A stretch of 12,359 nt of DNA, from positions 1 through 12,359 of the forward strand of contig DHOU01000023.1 of NCBI GenBank assembly GCA_002409745.1. The letters run 5' to 3'. The position numbers and the translations under genes are program-made. The stretch comes from Bacteroidales bacterium UBA5382 (lineage in GTDB: Bacteria > Bacteroidota > Bacteroidia > Bacteroidales > Dysgonomonadaceae). The notes below the pieces were generated by a model, which was given only the letters and a program-made list of their open reading frames with translations, was not told the origin of the DNA and ran no database searches. This document shows, piece by piece, positions 4,859 through 10,166 of the stretch (its first letter is position 1; each line of letters starts with the position of its first letter).

Positions 4859-6079
4859 ATGTATACACCATTTGAAATAAAAAAGGATATTTTTTATGTG
4901 GGAGTAAATGACCGCACAAAGTATCAGTTCGAAAATCATTTTCTGTTGCCGAAGGGCGTAGCTTACAATTCCTATATTTTAAAGGATGAAAAAACCGTTC
5001 TTTTCGATACGGTTGATATTAGTTATTCCGATGTGTTTTTACACAAAATAAAATCGGTTTTGGGAGATAAACCGATCGACTATTTGGTCATAAACCACAT
5101 GGAGCCCGATCATTCGGGAGCCATCGAATGGCTGGTAAGCAAGTTTCCCGATATTAAGATCGTTGGAAATTCCCGAACGGAAGATATGTTGAAAGGATTT
5201 TACGGCATTACGGATAATGTTATCGTTGTAAAGGACAAGGAAGAACTTTCGATAGGGGAAAAGACGTTGCGTTTTTATCTTACGCCCATGGTTCACTGGC
5301 CTGAAACGATGATTACGTATGTGCCCGAGTTGCATGCGATTTTCTCGGGCGATGCATTCGGCGCATTCGGTGCGCTTAATGGCGGAATCCTCGACACGCA
5401 AATCGATCCGGAAAGATATCACGGAGAAATGATTCGTTATTATGCCAGTGTGGTAGGAAAGTACGGATCACCCGTGCAAAAGGCTTTGGAGAAGTTGTCC
5501 GAAATCGAAATCGAGGCTATTTGCTCAACTCACGGACCGGTTTGGGTCAATCGGAAAAATATCGAAAACGTGTTGGCTCTATATGATAAGCTCAGCAAAT
5601 ATGAGGCCGATGAAGGATTGGTCATCGCTTACGGGAGCATGTACGGCAATACCGAACAGCTTGCCGAAATCATTGCCGACTCGGCCGCGCGCCATGGCGT
5701 GAAAGACATCGTCATGCATAATGTGTCGAAGAGTTCCGAATCGCATATTCTGCGCGACATATTTAAGTATAAAGGCCTCATTGTCGGGTCTCCTACCTAC
5801 AACAGCAAATTGTATCCCGGTGTGGAAAGCTTGCTTTCGGCATTGGAAAACCGTCAAATGAAAAACCGGATATTCGGTTATTTCAGTGTCTATGCATGGG
5901 CAAACGGCGCTAAAAAAGAATTGAAGGCATTTTCGGAGAAAATGGATTTCGAGTTGATCGGAGAGCCTTTCGACATGAAGCAGTCGCTCAATCCCGAAGC
6001 CATCGAAAAGGCTTGGGAGTTAGGCCGACTAATGGCCGAGAGATTGTTATCGGAAAAAGCCGTGTACATTGACAATTAG
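4859..6079 (+). CDS. FprA-family A-type flavodiiron protein
   Basis: The 406-residue cytoplasmic protein has the two-domain layout of class A flavodiiron enzymes, which reduce oxygen to water or nitric oxide to nitrous oxide in anaerobes. The N-terminal metallo-beta-lactamase-like domain (about 1-245) carries the full set of diiron ligands: His80, Glu82, Asp84 and His85 in NHMEPDHSG, His146 in MVHWPE, Asp165 in SGDAFGAFG and His225 in STHGPVW. The flavodoxin domain (about 254-400) shows the FMN phosphate loop YGSMYGNTEQ (258-267) and GSPTYNSKLYPGV. There is no rubredoxin extension, so electrons must come from a separate rubredoxin or reductase. Oxygen or NO preference cannot be read from sequence. 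Its stop codon lies in the first unit of the heptamer repeat array that leads into nagB. Confidence 0.95.
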   Translation: MYTPFEIKKDIFYVGVNDRTKYQFENHFLLPKGVAYNSYILKDEKTVLFDTVDISYSDVFLHKIKSVLGDKPIDYLVINHMEPDHSGAIEWLVSKFPDIKIVGNSRTEDMLKGFYGITDNVIVVKDKEELSIGEKTLRFYLTPMVHWPETMITYVPELHAIFSGDAFGAFGALNGGILDTQIDPERYHGEMIRYYASVVGKYGSPVQKALEKLSEIEIEAICSTHGPVWVNRKNIENVLALYDKLSKYEADEGLVIAYGSMYGNTEQLAEIIADSAARHGVKDIVMHNVSKSSESHILRDIFKYKGLIVGSPTYNSKLYPGVESLLSALENRQMKNRIFGYFSVYAWANGAKKELKAFSEKMDFELIGEPFDMKQSLNPEAIEKAWELGRLMAERLLSEKAVYIDN

Positions 6080-6163
6080 TAATTCGTAATTTGTAATCAG
6101 TAATTTGTAATCAGTAATTTGTAATTTGTAATTCGTAATTTGTAATTAGTAATTCGTTATTAT
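6073..6163. repeat. 7-bp tandem repeat array (consensus TAATTTG) spanning the fprA-nagB junction
   Basis: Eleven back-to-back 7-bp units of the form TAATTTG, TAATTCG, TAATCAG or TAATTAG run from 6080 to 6156. They are preceded by CAATTAG (6073-6079), which holds the fprA stop codon, and followed by a diverged TTATTAT (6157-6163) that runs into the nagB ATG. The array fills the whole intergenic space. Each unit contains TTG or TTTG and starts with TA, resembling parts of the Bacteroides -33 and -7 elements, but none is an exact TAnnTTTG. Changes in copy number would alter the leader of nagB by multiples of 7 bp and would leave both proteins intact. Confidence 0.85.
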
Positions 6164-6971
6164 GAGACTTATCATTCAACCTGATGCCGAAAATCTCGCA
6201 TTATGGGCGGCAAATTATATTGCTGCAAAAATAAGAAAAGCGAACCCATCTTCGGAAAAGCCTTTTAAACTGGGATTACCCACCGGCTCGTCGCCTCTGG
6301 GTACCTATCGGGCATTGATACAACTGTATAAAGCCGGAAAGGTTTCGTTCGAGAATGTCATTACTTTTAATATGGACGAATATGTGGGGCTGCCCGATGA
6401 GCATCCGCAGAGCTACCACACCTTTATGTGGCAGAACTTTTTCCATCATATCGATATAAAAAAAGAAAATGTACATATCCTCAATGGAATGGCTGACGAC
6501 TTGGAGGCCGAATGCGAGGCGTATGAACAAGCTATCAAGGATGCCGGAGGAATCGATTTGTTTTTAGGAGGTATCGGCCCCGACGGACACATCGCCTTTA
6601 ATGAGCCGGGCTCGTCCCTTACTTCCCGTACCCGTGTGAAAACCCTGACGACCGATACGATTATCGCCAATTCACGCTTCTTTGACAATGATGTCAATCA
6701 AGTACCCAAGACGGCTTTGACGGTTGGGGTAGGGACGGTACTCGATTCGAAAGAAGTGCTGATCCTTGTCAACGGACATCATAAGGCCCGCGCACTTTAT
6801 CATGCCGTGGAAGGAGCCATTACCCAAATGTGGACGATCAGTGCCCTGCAACTCCATCGCAAAGGTATCATCGTATGTGACTATGATGCCTGCGCCGAAC
6901 TGAAAGTGGGCACTTATAAATATTTTCTGGATATCGAGCATGAACATCTCGATCCCGAGTCGTTGCTGTAG
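6162..6971 (+). CDS. nagB: Glucosamine-6-phosphate deaminase
   Basis: The 269-residue enzyme converts glucosamine 6-phosphate to fructose 6-phosphate and ammonia, the last step of amino-sugar catabolism. It aligns almost without gaps with the E. coli enzyme as I remember it. Visible motifs are the phosphate-binding [13 protein letters not shown] (37-49), FNMDEYVGL (69-77) with the catalytic Asp72, [17 protein letters not shown] (136-152) with Asp141, His143 and Glu148, and [22 protein letters not shown]. The length and numbering match the hexameric NagB type and not the longer NagB-like fusions seen in some Bacteroidota. The ATG at 6162 is fixed by MRLI, which begins the enzyme in E. coli too. 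The gene has no visible conventional promoter. A 7-bp repeat array lies directly in front of it. Confidence 0.97.
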
Positions 6972-7023
6972 TCCAGGCCTGCACCTGAGATGACTTCCTG
7001 CCTGCCGCAACGTTAAATGAGTA

Positions 7024-7035
7024 TTGAAATTTCAA
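7024..7035. promoter_or_regulatory. 12-bp perfect palindrome upstream of the DUF1538 gene
   Basis: TTGAAATTTCAA is a perfect palindrome ending 13 bp before the ATG at 7049. It may be a regulator site or part of the leader. The ribosome binding site AAGGA at 7040-7044 lies between it and the ATG. No TAnnTTTG box is seen in the 77-bp gap after nagB. Confidence 0.35.
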
Positions 7036-7048
7036 ATGTAAGGATATT

Positions 7049-8566
7049 ATGCACCCCGTATTAGAAAAGTTTAAAGAAATATTCATTTCTGTAATACCTA
7101 TTGTTGCTATTGTCTTGTTGTTGCATTTTACTATTGCACCACTCGAACAAGTCGTGTTGGCAAAGTTTTTAATAGGTGCGCTTTTCATATTATTGGGTAT
7201 GCCTATTTTCCTGATAGGTGTGGATATAAGCATTACGCCGATCGGCGAGAGAATAAGCAGCAGCCTGCTGAGCATTAGCCGGCTGTGGAAGATTCTGCTG
7301 GGCGGCTTGGTTATCGGGTTTCTTGTAACCGTAGCCGAACCCGATTTGCATATATTGGGACGTCAGGTTACGGAGGTGACCGCCGGCGGCATCAATTCCG
7401 GTTTATTGGTGATGCTTGTGTCTATGGGCGTCGGACTGTTAGTGGCGGTGGCATTGGTACGTGTATTGAAAATCATACCGCTGAATAAATTGATGACGAT
7501 TATCTATATTATCATCTTTATTTTAGCCTTCTTTTCCGATTCGGAGTTTTTAGCGATCGCTTTCGATGCGGCCGGATCCACTACCGGATCTATTTCCGTA
7601 CCGTTCCTTCTGGCTTTGTCCGTAGGCGCATCTAATCTTACCCGTAGTAAAGGGAATGAGGAGACCGATAGTTTCGGAATGTTGGGTATTGCTTCCACCG
7701 GAGCTATTATTGCCGTATTGTTGCAAGGCGCCTTTAGCAATACCGGCTTGACGGGAACACTCGATTTAGACGCAAGCGTCGGCGAAAACGCCTTTGCCAG
7801 TGTATTGTCGCAAGTGGTTACGGTGTCATTCGAATCGTTTTTAAGTTTGGCGCCGGTGTTGGTACTCTTTTTTGTTGTCAATTTTTTACGATTAAAGGAA
7901 TCGAAGAAGACGATCCGGACGATTATAATCGGGACGGTGTATACATATGTGGGCTTAGTGTTGTTTCTTACCGGTGTGAATGGGGGGTTTATCGATGCCA
8001 GCCGCCAAGTGGGCTTCCAACTTGCTTCCCTGGAAATGGAGTGGGTATTAGTCTTAATGGGAGTGGTATTCGGTATTGTAACGATTCCCGCAGAACCTTC
8101 GGTACACGTGCTTACCAACCAAATCGAGAATGAAACGGCCGGGGCGATAAAAGGCAATACCGTATTAGTGGCGTTGAGTCTCGGTGTGGGGCTTGCCGTT
8201 GGGCTTTCGATGTTACGCATTCTTATTCCGGGGTTGCAATTGTGGCATATTTTGTTACCGGGAATGATATTGGTCATCTTCTTGTCTTATTTTATTTCCG
8301 ATATCTTTGTGGGTATCGCTTACGATTCGGGCGGGGTGGCAGCCGGAACAATGACGGCTACCTTTTTATTGCCTTACGCTCAGGGAGCCGCGGAATATAT
8401 GCCCAATGCGAATGTGGTTACCGACGGTTTCGGCGTGATTGCCATTGTAGCCCTGATACCATTATTAACAGTTGAATTATTAGGATTTATATATAAACTA
8501 ACTATAAGACGGCAGAATAAAAAAGCTGCCAAACAAATACAAACCATAGGGGAAAGTGATTTATGA
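7049..8566 (+). CDS. DUF1538 family membrane protein with two fused copies (putative cation transporter)
   Basis: The 505-residue protein is very hydrophobic, with roughly a dozen membrane segments and almost no soluble part. It is an internal duplication: AEPDLHIL (96-103) recurs as AEPSVHVL (348-355), FDAAGSTTG (172-180) as YDSGGVAAG (425-433), and DSFGMLGIAS (207-216) as DGFGVIAIVA (459-468). The offset is constant at 252-253 residues. This matches the DUF1538 family, often annotated only as such. I recall reports of paired DUF1538 proteins (UmpA/UmpB) acting as Na+/H+ antiporters in Halomonas, so cation transport is a reasonable guess and is not shown here. A good AAGGA ribosome binding site precedes the ATG. 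The stop overlaps the start of a PII-like gene by 4 bp (ATGA), so the two are translationally coupled. Confidence 0.88.
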   Translation: MHPVLEKFKEIFISVIPIVAIVLLLHFTIAPLEQVVLAKFLIGALFILLGMPIFLIGVDISITPIGERISSSLLSISRLWKILLGGLVIGFLVTVAEPDLHILGRQVTEVTAGGINSGLLVMLVSMGVGLLVAVALVRVLKIIPLNKLMTIIYIIIFILAFFSDSEFLAIAFDAAGSTTGSISVPFLLALSVGASNLTRSKGNEETDSFGMLGIASTGAIIAVLLQGAFSNTGLTGTLDLDASVGENAFASVLSQVVTVSFESFLSLAPVLVLFFVVNFLRLKESKKTIRTIIIGTVYTYVGLVLFLTGVNGGFIDASRQVGFQLASLEMEWVLVLMGVVFGIVTIPAEPSVHVLTNQIENETAGAIKGNTVLVALSLGVGLAVGLSMLRILIPGLQLWHILLPGMILVIFLSYFISDIFVGIAYDSGGVAAGTMTATFLLPYAQGAAEYMPNANVVTDGFGVIAIVALIPLLTVELLGFIYKLTIRRQNKKAAKQIQTIGESDL

Positions 8567-9585
8567 TTAATTATTCGGAGTTATCGTCTCATGATGATAC
8601 CTACTGCATATTAGGTATTATCGTTAACCGCGGCCAGGGTAAAAAAATATTTCAGTTTGCCCGCAGGATAGGATTCTCAAAGGCCAATTGTTTGTTGGGA
8701 GAAGGCAGAAGCAGCCGGTCGAACCGAATCCTCGAATTTTTGGCGCTGGATGAAGTTGACAAAGAAGTAATCCTTCTGGGCGTGAAGTCTCAGCAAGGAC
8801 AAGAGATGTTGTCGAAACTGGAGAAAGAGTTCAATTTCGACAAGCCTAATAAAGGCATCGCCTTTATGATGCCGGTGAGTTATCCGGGCACACTCGACCG
8901 GGAATATGTCCCCGAAAGCCCTTACGTGAACGTGATGATTATCCTCAATGAGAACGTGGCCGACGATTTCGGCAACTTTGTACAAGAGCACGGATTCTCG
9001 GGCTTGACGATGATCAAGGCGCGGGGGGCGGCTTCTATCATCCATCCGTTGATGGGAATACAGGTGGAGTCGGCAAAAGTAGTGGCTATGATGATCGTGC
9101 CCCGCAGTAAGATGGAGCATTTGATTTATTTGGTATCGCAACGCTTTAACCTGGCCACCGAAAACACCGGCGTGCTGGCTGTGCAGCCTATCAGCCGCCT
9201 GGTGGGGATTGTGCAGGACGAAAAGGATGATTTATCCATGAATCCCTCCGCACCCGAACCGATCATCAAACAGATGGTGGTGGCCCTTGTGCCGCATGGC
9301 AGCGCCGAAGAGTATTTGCATAATGTCAAGAAATTGGGCGTGTCGGGAAGTACCATTATTCATTCGCGGCTGGCCAATCTGTCGCCCAACAGCGAGGGGC
9401 TTCTCCCCATTGGAATCGATGCGGAGGAAGATATGGTCATAACGCTCGCAAGCCATGAATTGGCGTCGAAAATACGCCATGAGTTATCGCGGCAAACTTT
9501 CGAAAACCAGGTGGAAAAGCCTTACGCTTTTTCATTTCCGGTAATCCGCACCGAAGGCATCCGTGCTGAAGGATTCGGCGAGTAG
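8563..9585 (+). CDS. Protein with three tandem PII-like (GlnB-like) domains
   Basis: The 340-residue soluble protein shows three consecutive segments with the same plan. Each opens with a hydrophobic strand (YCILGIIVN, about 14-22; YVNVMIILN, 121-129; IKQMVVALV, 235-243). Then follows a G-[FV]-S turn and strand (GFSKANCLLGEG 37-48; GFSGLTMIKARG 144-155; GVSGSTIIHSR 259-269). A strand-helix-strand ends each unit (KEVILLGVKS to KGIAFMMPV; AKVVAMMIVP to TGVLAVQPI; EDMVITLASHE to YAFSFPVI). This is the ferredoxin-like PII fold order. The loops in the T-loop position are short and lack the YRG motif and modified tyrosine of GlnB/GlnK. Canonical PII subunits are about 112 residues and trimeric, so one chain here could mimic a trimer. 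The ATGA overlap with the DUF1538 gene suggests it regulates that transporter. Its ligand is unknown. Confidence 0.8.
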   Translation: MINYSELSSHDDTYCILGIIVNRGQGKKIFQFARRIGFSKANCLLGEGRSSRSNRILEFLALDEVDKEVILLGVKSQQGQEMLSKLEKEFNFDKPNKGIAFMMPVSYPGTLDREYVPESPYVNVMIILNENVADDFGNFVQEHGFSGLTMIKARGAASIIHPLMGIQVESAKVVAMMIVPRSKMEHLIYLVSQRFNLATENTGVLAVQPISRLVGIVQDEKDDLSMNPSAPEPIIKQMVVALVPHGSAEEYLHNVKKLGVSGSTIIHSRLANLSPNSEGLLPIGIDAEEDMVITLASHELASKIRHELSRQTFENQVEKPYAFSFPVIRTEGIRAEGFGE

Positions 9586-9626
9586 GCCTTTCTTACCGGG
9601 GGGATCGCTTGAAGCGACGGCCTTGG

Positions 9627-10166
9627 TTAATCACTGAATTTCGAATGATCTTTATAATACCCGGTAGTAAATCTACTGGGTTTTTTATTGATAATAAGCG
9701 TGGAGGGAATCTTGCGGAACTCATCGGCATTTATCCGGAGCATTTCGTTCCAGGATGGGTAGCTGATAAGCATAAAACTGTAATGCGTATACAGGCTATC
9801 GCGATTGCTCCTGTTGCCGATAATTTTGATGCGGTTCGAAAACTTCTCTTGTAAATCTTTATACATATCCGACAATAAAGGCGAAGTGTACAGGAGCTCA
9901 TGCACATCATCGATGTCAATGGTTACCTGCTGGTTGTTGATCATCAAGCGGCGGGCATAACGCAATAGAAACTGATCGGCTTCGGAGCGTATGACGATGA
10001 GCGTATGTGTAATATCGGTGAAACTGCGGTTGACGAAAATGCCCACACTGCATTGGCTACGTTCCACGAAATAGCGTGTTTTGTCTTTCATCAGCATACT
10101 CGGATAAAAGACGATGCGGCTTCGGAACAAGCGGTTGGCCAGAGCCCGTTGAGCCAGCGGATATTT
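9627..10166 (-). pseudogene. Detached C-terminal part of the cation:proton antiporter gene, out of frame
   Basis: After a one-base shift relative to the upstream frame, reading continues from about 10140 as LANRLFRSRIVFYPS and then about 160 residues to the stop at 9627-9629. Segments such as KDKTRYFVE, CSVGIFVNRSF, HTLIVIRSEADQFLLRYARR and INADEFRKIPSTLIINK look like a second universal-stress-protein-like domain of the same antiporter. The phase is blocked upstream by a stop at 10167-10169, so the shift must lie between 10094 and 10166. GGGCTCTGG on the minus strand (10147 to 10139) is the likeliest point, with one base missing. A start at the TTG at 10130 is formally possible, but it lies in the middle of the domain. 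Corrected, the full protein would have about 779 residues from the ATG at 11965. Confidence 0.75.

Follow-up and report, generated by a model that had tools for sequence, protein, structure and literature searches.

DUF1538 (UmpAB-Like) Membrane Protein Genes Adjoin PII-Like Genes in Several Phyla: a Bacteroidales Locus with Three PII-Like Units in One Chain

Introduction

PII proteins are archetypal metabolic sensors, whose canonical ATP-binding residues are a lysine of the B-loop and arginines of the C-loop. To our knowledge, few transporters have a dedicated PII partner. Linkage between the gene for the transporter and that for the PII-like protein is a family trait of SbtA-SbtB and AmtB-GlnK; in the latter, a PII homotrimer with the canonical ATP/2-oxoglutarate residues sits on a trimeric channel. 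We describe here a gene pair from Bacteroidales bacterium UBA5382, located in a 12,359-nt stretch of contig DHOU01000023.1 (the window, meaning the whole stretch analyzed). Its first gene (gene 1) encodes a two-repeat DUF1538 membrane protein, and its second gene (gene 2) a chain of three PII-like units.

PMC13249358 describes SbtB as a homotrimer and SbtA as assembling as a trimer. Contact with the transporter is mediated by the SbtB T-loop, and nucleotides bind the clefts between subunits (PMC13249358 and PMC10117731). The window pair resembles SbtA-SbtB in that a membrane transporter has a dedicated PII-like partner; it differs in having three different units per chain and a two-repeat DUF1538 protein as transporter. 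The difference from AmtB-GlnK is that the canonical ATP/2-oxoglutarate residues are replaced in the window PII units. The best-supported reading is that the pair would work like SbtA-SbtB or AmtB-GlnK, being a member of neither.

A DUF1538 transporter has been described in Halomonas zhaodongensis, where UmpAB is a two-component Na+(Li+,K+)/H+ antiporter, a heterodimer of homologous subunits (main text of PMC5484666). Both UmpAB and the gene 1 protein belong to the same Pfam family (PF07556) and consist of two homologous halves. These are encoded by two genes in H. zhaodongensis and by a single fused gene in the window, whose product scores below the UmpA and UmpB cut-offs. Loci with split UmpA and UmpB genes and one PII gene, such as that of a Methylocystis rosea plasmid, have the same gene pair and order as the window, but the transporter is unfused and there is one PII unit instead of three. 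PII is not mentioned in the main text of four open-licence papers that name DUF1538 (PMC5484666, PMC13255231, PMC5996927, and PMC6055358; supplements not covered), and in a fifth one (PMC7221264) "PII" occurs only as letters within a sequence motif. A search of the open-licence literature for DUF1538 together with "P-II family nitrogen regulator" gave no match. In that literature we found no report of DUF1538 as a PII-controlled transporter family; natural fusions of the two and covalent three-unit forms, described below, are further traits of it.

Results

The DUF1538 Protein

The gene 1 protein matches the Pfam model PF07556 (405 bits, E 6.9e-122; curated cut-off, 22.6), and does so over two stretches. 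When the two halves are compared with each other, they align over 210 residues with 29% identity (E 1.2e-27), and three motif pairs, AEP (residues 96/348), D[AS][AG]G (173/426) and FG[MV] (209/461), recur at an offset of 252–253 residues. The internal duplication proposed in an earlier sequence-only reading of this DNA is hence borne out, offset included; that reading had also correctly placed both open reading frames (ORFs) and the ATGA by which they overlap (Table 1). Translational coupling of the two genes may fairly be inferred from this overlap. The models NF041627 (UmpA) and NF041628 (UmpB) give 140.3 and 123.1 bits, respectively, far below their equivalog cut-offs of 490 and 500. Judged by sequence, the protein is made up of two UmpA/UmpB-type halves in one chain and is a distant relative of UmpAB.

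The AlphaFold model of the gene 1 protein is all-helical and confident (predicted local distance difference test, pLDDT, 89.8; predicted template modeling score, pTM, 0.89); no close match was found among solved structures. The acidic motifs of both repeats (E97-P98-D99, D173, E349-P350, and D426) are located at, or adjoining, helix breaks of the model. Ion-binding sites of secondary carriers are often conserved acidic motifs at helix breaks, and we consider these motifs candidate ion-binding sites.

Table 1. Features of the gene pair in the window. Invariance of DUF1538 motif residues was judged in an alignment of 27 DUF1538 proteins; helix breaks are those of the AlphaFold model.
Feature	Positions	Strand	Basis or remarks
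Gene 1, two-repeat DUF1538 (UmpAB-like) membrane protein, 505 aa, halves fused	7049-8566	+	PF07556
DUF1538 repeat 1	7100-7732	+	PF07556, 208.4 bits
AEPD motif, repeat 1, residues 96-99	7334-7345	+	E97, P98, D99 invariant; helix break 95/98
DAAGSTTG motif, repeat 1, residues 173-180	7565-7588	+	D173, G176, T178, T179, G180 invariant; helix break 177/183
DUF1538 repeat 2	7859-8491	+	PF07556, 209.2 bits
AEP motif, repeat 2, residues 348-350	8090-8098	+	A348, E349, P350 invariant; helix break 348/350
DSGGVAAG motif, repeat 2, residues 426-433	8324-8347	+	D426, G428, G429, V430, A431, G433 invariant; helix break 431/434
ATGA, gene 1 stop overlapping gene 2 start	8563-8566	+	Read in the sequence
Gene 2, three-unit PII-like protein, 340 aa	8563-9585	+	Three matches of the PII-unit model
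PII-like unit 1, residues 15-106	8605-8880	+	58 bits; A type (first unit of two-unit relatives)
PII-like unit 2, residues 124-217	8932-9213	+	38 bits; second place in the chain
PII-like unit 3, residues 237-334	9271-9564	+	41 bits; diverged extra unit, nearest to B type (second unit)
Candidate terminator hairpin 3′ of gene 2, 9 pairs then T run	9659-9681	+	Consensus match

The PII-Like Protein

A hidden Markov model (HMM) trained on ten PII units of relatives, with the window protein excluded, matches the gene 2 protein at three places. The Pfam P-II family (PF00543) calls the middle unit alone (30.1 bits; cut-off, 25), leaving units 1 and 3 uncalled. Units 1 and 2 match each other in BLASTP (E 5e-6), and unit 3 has no pairwise BLASTP match to either unit 1 (E 0.84) or unit 2 (E 0.61). 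When profiles are compared with hhalign, unit 3 aligns with the B-type PII profile (96.6%, E 6.9e-10; the profile has 12 rows, one of them being window unit 2). The three PII-like units that had been proposed are thus all recognized, the third one also by profile comparison.

The units were also typed with A and B models made from 122 rows, from which the window protein was kept out. Unit 1 gives 64.9 bits with the A-HMM, 31.6 with the B-HMM and 30.3 with the C-HMM. Unit 2 gives 42.1 bits with A vs. 38.2 with B, and in its five homologues B leads by 1.6–4.1 bits. Unit 3 comes closest to B (40.2 bits, vs. 28.5 with A and 30.1 with C).

The AlphaFold model of the gene 2 protein (pLDDT 77.3, pTM 0.82) has the PII-type, ferredoxin-like order of strands and helices in all three units; the sequence-only reading had made its case depend on this fold. 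GlnK structures match the middle unit, and the pTM value points to a defined packing of the three units. The chain holds three non-identical units and is therefore not a homotrimer of single-domain subunits; going by the pTM value, it would be a pseudo-trimer.

At the site where four solved PII proteins read GDG[KR][IF]F, the B-type profile reads GkGiaf, and the units of the window read NKGIAF, NTGVLA, and EKPYAF. The profile is also devoid of the C-loop basic residues of the four solved proteins, so that it does not have the canonical ATP-binding residues. Ten columns, T, R-G, K, and G among them, are invariant in 11 single-unit relatives and window unit 2.

DUF1538 Genes Adjoin PII-Like Genes

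Scanning GTDB with the DUF1538 alignment gave at least 570 stretches encoding a relative, the best 80 of which were used. In 78 of the 80 loci, DUF1538 is followed by PII-like units on its own strand, and the two loci without PII (L051 and L081) both end at a contig edge. Each of the 78 has exactly two units, arranged as one double-domain ORF (66 loci) or as two ORFs (12 loci). No further PII unit of this kind was found elsewhere in the loci (873,922 bases).

Genomes were then sampled by phylum, the phylum being taken from the centre locus and the genomes chosen independently of similarity to the pair. In the phylum of the window, DUF1538 exceeds the cut-off in 13 of 395 genomes, the window genome counted in, and PII adjoins in all 13; G352 and G276, with a PF07556 match below the cut-off and no PII adjoining, were left out. 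The phylum of the Treponema locus has DUF1538 over the cut-off in 83 of 296 genomes, and PII was adjoining or fused in 74 of the 76 examined. Seventy-three of these were found by script and one, G713, by reading: its 436-aa PII ORF overlaps the end of DUF1538, and its first unit was missed by the HMM. The two exceptions are G741, with two DUF1538 copies (L187 and L222), and G755 (L188), neither with PII adjoining. Of the 249 genomes sampled from the phylum of the Lachnospiraceae locus, 84 exceed the cut-off for DUF1538, and PII is present in 30 of 30 loci (the best-scoring ones, one per genome, of the 84 positives).

Plasmids carry the association as well. Nine plasmid records contain DUF1538, and in the three examined PII adjoins it. 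Two of them are alphaproteobacterial plasmids (Chelativorans, L110; Methylocystis, L111) with UmpA, UmpB, and one PII gene. NCBI annotates the PII gene as "P-II family nitrogen regulator" and the transporter genes, as in Methylocystis rosea, as DUF1538; a Paraclostridium plasmid has fused DUF1538 and a two-unit PII. Three genomes with split UmpA, UmpB, and one PII (G765, G942, and G872) came from a PII search and are not counted as linkage.

Taking into account that thirteen carrier genomes hold from 1 to 6 P-II matches each, chance adjacency is expected at about one in a thousand per locus. The genes on either side show no conservation (among 104 neighbours scanned, each Pfam family occurs in 6 at most), and hence the unit consists of the transporter and PII alone. 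The pairing that had been noted in the window thus extends to several phyla, and the conserved linkage of transporter and PII-like gene that is a trait of SbtA-SbtB and AmtB-GlnK is found here.

Some further details of these loci may be mentioned. One conjugative and one mobilizable plasmid make up the pair L110 and L111; in L110 the annotated UmpA piece, at 273 bases, is short and possibly truncated. In G684 (L223), two tandem DUF1538 genes have one PII gene between them, which leaves one copy with PII upstream only. The genome of the window has a further P-II match (G000:C24:63808-64101) with one TGA inside.

DUF1538 and PII Fused in One Chain

In one locus of the Treponema-phylum sample (L185, in G721), a double PII gene is followed by a 614-aa DUF1538-DUF1538-PII protein encoded in one frame. 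A search with the C-terminal part of this protein gave 33 protein clusters, its own included, and each of them joins DUF1538 and PII in a single chain: 31 are DUF-DUF-PII, one is DUF-PII (P0046), and one is PII-PII-DUF-DUF-PII (P0018). The L185 fusion was accepted since a single ORF holds the two domains in frame and the same kind of fusion recurs in 32 other clusters. That such fusions occur naturally speaks strongly for a joint function of the two proteins.

P0018 is an 837-aa protein with the order PII-PII-DUF1538-DUF1538-PII, seen at the protein level as one cluster on one contig. Its architecture would place both ends of the double DUF1538 on the PII side of the membrane, presumably the cytoplasm.

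Apparent fusions in L033 and L157 were rejected, as the ORFs that carry PII there run open upstream in a frame other than that of DUF1538.

Number and Origin of the PII Units

Most relatives have two PII units beside DUF1538, as one double-domain protein or as two genes, and some have one. Three units as in the window are rare. Upon searching 5.8 billion proteins, with limited sensitivity, we found close relatives of the three-unit chain in 6 clusters, that of the window included; a profile search for three-unit relatives added two-unit proteins only. Full-length orthologues of the three-unit protein were sought in 393 genomes of the order and in 61 relatives, and each set yielded a single one, from the window's own genome. 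The expectation that a PII-like protein of about 340 residues would be encoded downstream throughout the Bacteroidota does not hold in that wording: a PII-like gene is conserved, its three-unit length is not. A second three-unit form, of 364–392 aa, follows a longer DUF1538 protein (623–734 aa); it was seen in ten Treponema-phylum genomes and in G147, from the sample of the window's phylum.

A DUF1538 tree was built with 57 rows (L031, L032, and L039 have no two-repeat ORF and were left out). The window falls in a firm clade of 14 rows, of which ten are fusions and three are two-unit forms (Shimodaira–Hasegawa-like approximate likelihood ratio test, 100). Its position beside the fusion clade has a support of 0, the larger 14-row clade alone being firm. 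The clade of long DUF1538 proteins, which precede the second three-unit form, is placed apart from it. A single clade of all three-unit rows is rejected (approximately unbiased test, p 6.7e-7, for a grouping picked after the tree was seen), and the three-unit trait requires two changes on the tree; three PII units per transporter therefore arose at least twice. When the third unit of the window is compared with the fused C-terminal unit, the C model beats the B model only in P0003 and P0004.

Discussion

We think it probable that the window pair is an UmpAB-type cation/H+ antiporter under the control of a dedicated PII-like body, which docks from the cytoplasm, has a nucleotide as ligand and forms a pseudo-trimer. 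The pairing of the genes and their fusion in other genomes are observed directly, and the fold of both proteins is that of structure predictions. From these, and from the systems described above, we infer the antiport, the cytoplasmic docking, the gating, the ligand, and the pseudo-trimer. The fused DUF1538 transporter would exchange Na+ or K+ for H+. The PII-like body would dock on its cytoplasmic side and control it, with its three unlike units most likely folding as a single-chain counterpart of the PII homotrimer. By analogy with SbtB, the three clefts between its unlike units would differ from one another. The ligands that could bind there would be small molecules, probably adenine nucleotides (c-di-AMP included), and binding would change the PII-like loops in such a way that the transporter opens or closes.

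Two points argue against a simple obligatory gate: UmpAB functioned in E. coli with no PII gene described (main text of PMC5484666), and some few copies of DUF1538, those of G741 and G755 among them, lack a PII neighbour. The two-fold/three-fold symmetry pairing, presented at the outset as unusual, is weaker than claimed, as most relatives have two PII units and some have one.

It is unlikely, in our opinion, that the PII-like units serve the transporter as an obligate subunit, structural or for assembly, and are not a ligand-responsive gate. Such a subunit would account for the near-universal adjacency and for PII being fused into the transporter chain, and the replacement of the canonical phosphate-binding residues and the divergence of unit 3 are what it would lead one to expect. 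An obligate subunit is at odds with the DUF1538 copies that exist without PII and with the function of UmpAB in E. coli with no PII described (main text of PMC5484666); the ten invariant columns fit a kept binding site, although they fit a kept fold too.

We give somewhat less credit still to the same control scheme acting on a species other than Na+, K+, or H+, DUF1538 subfamilies possibly differing in substrate. The window protein is distant from UmpAB (140 bits vs. a cut-off of 490), and the papers found report tests of a single DUF1538 pair. The cation transport system of the sequence-only reading fits UmpAB, the one characterized pair (main text of PMC5484666), though the scores are far below the UmpA and UmpB cut-offs. 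Both repeats of the window protein have acidic motifs at helix breaks, as is usual for ion-coupled carriers, and this speaks for ions as the substrate. Very improbable, finally, is that the PII-like protein reports the state of the transporter to other targets in the cell, as a membrane sequestration switch of the AmtB type, and does not gate transport. Sequestration of GlnK by AmtB is a known mode of PII action, but one PII unit of the fused forms cannot leave the membrane.

With gated antiport remaining the interpretation that we prefer, a wider one may be put forward tentatively, as one that we would not yet favour: DUF1538 with PII would make up a large class of ion transporters under sensor control, present in several phyla and so far undescribed. 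In part of its lineages, the PII homotrimer would have become a fixed hetero-trimer of unlike units, made of one chain (as in the window), of two chains (PII-PII and DUF1538-PII), or joined to the transporter (PII-PII-DUF1538-DUF1538-PII). Its three clefts would sense different things, and a three-fold body would act on a two-fold transporter.

What can be retained is that a DUF1538 transporter family nearly always carries PII in the phyla of the Lachnospiraceae and Treponema loci. A function that can be tested is thereby offered for genes linked to DUF1538 and annotated by NCBI as "P-II family nitrogen regulator". Being single chains already, the fused and three-unit forms could serve as constructs for studying PII sensing at unlike sites and its action on a transporter.

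Other Features of the Window

Terminator-like sites in positions 6900–9750, both strands considered, number 7, vs. a mean of 3.4 (standard deviation, 2.0) in shuffled sequences; the candidate hairpin of Table 1 lies in this interval.

Two small adjacent ORFs on the minus strand (1648–1896, 82 aa; 1900–2190, 96 aa) have no convincing Pfam match and, by their layout, resemble what we take to be a toxin-antitoxin pair. Short tandem repeats of 21/42 bases occupy positions 2634–2742, where two long ORFs overlap (2395–2967 and 2609–2974); no convincing family was found for the ORF at 2395–2967. Positions 6074–6154 contain 11.6 copies of the 7-base sequence AATTTGT, between ODP/flavodoxin and glucosamine-6-phosphate isomerase-type genes. 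Near the DUF1538 pair lies a second gene of the cation/H+ antiporter type, a 643-aa Na_H_Exchanger ORF (PF00999; 10091–12022, minus strand). Its 3′ end is overlapped by 40 bases by a 167-aa ORF with no Pfam match (9627–10130, minus strand); a frameshift may have split a single cation exchanger gene into these two ORFs.
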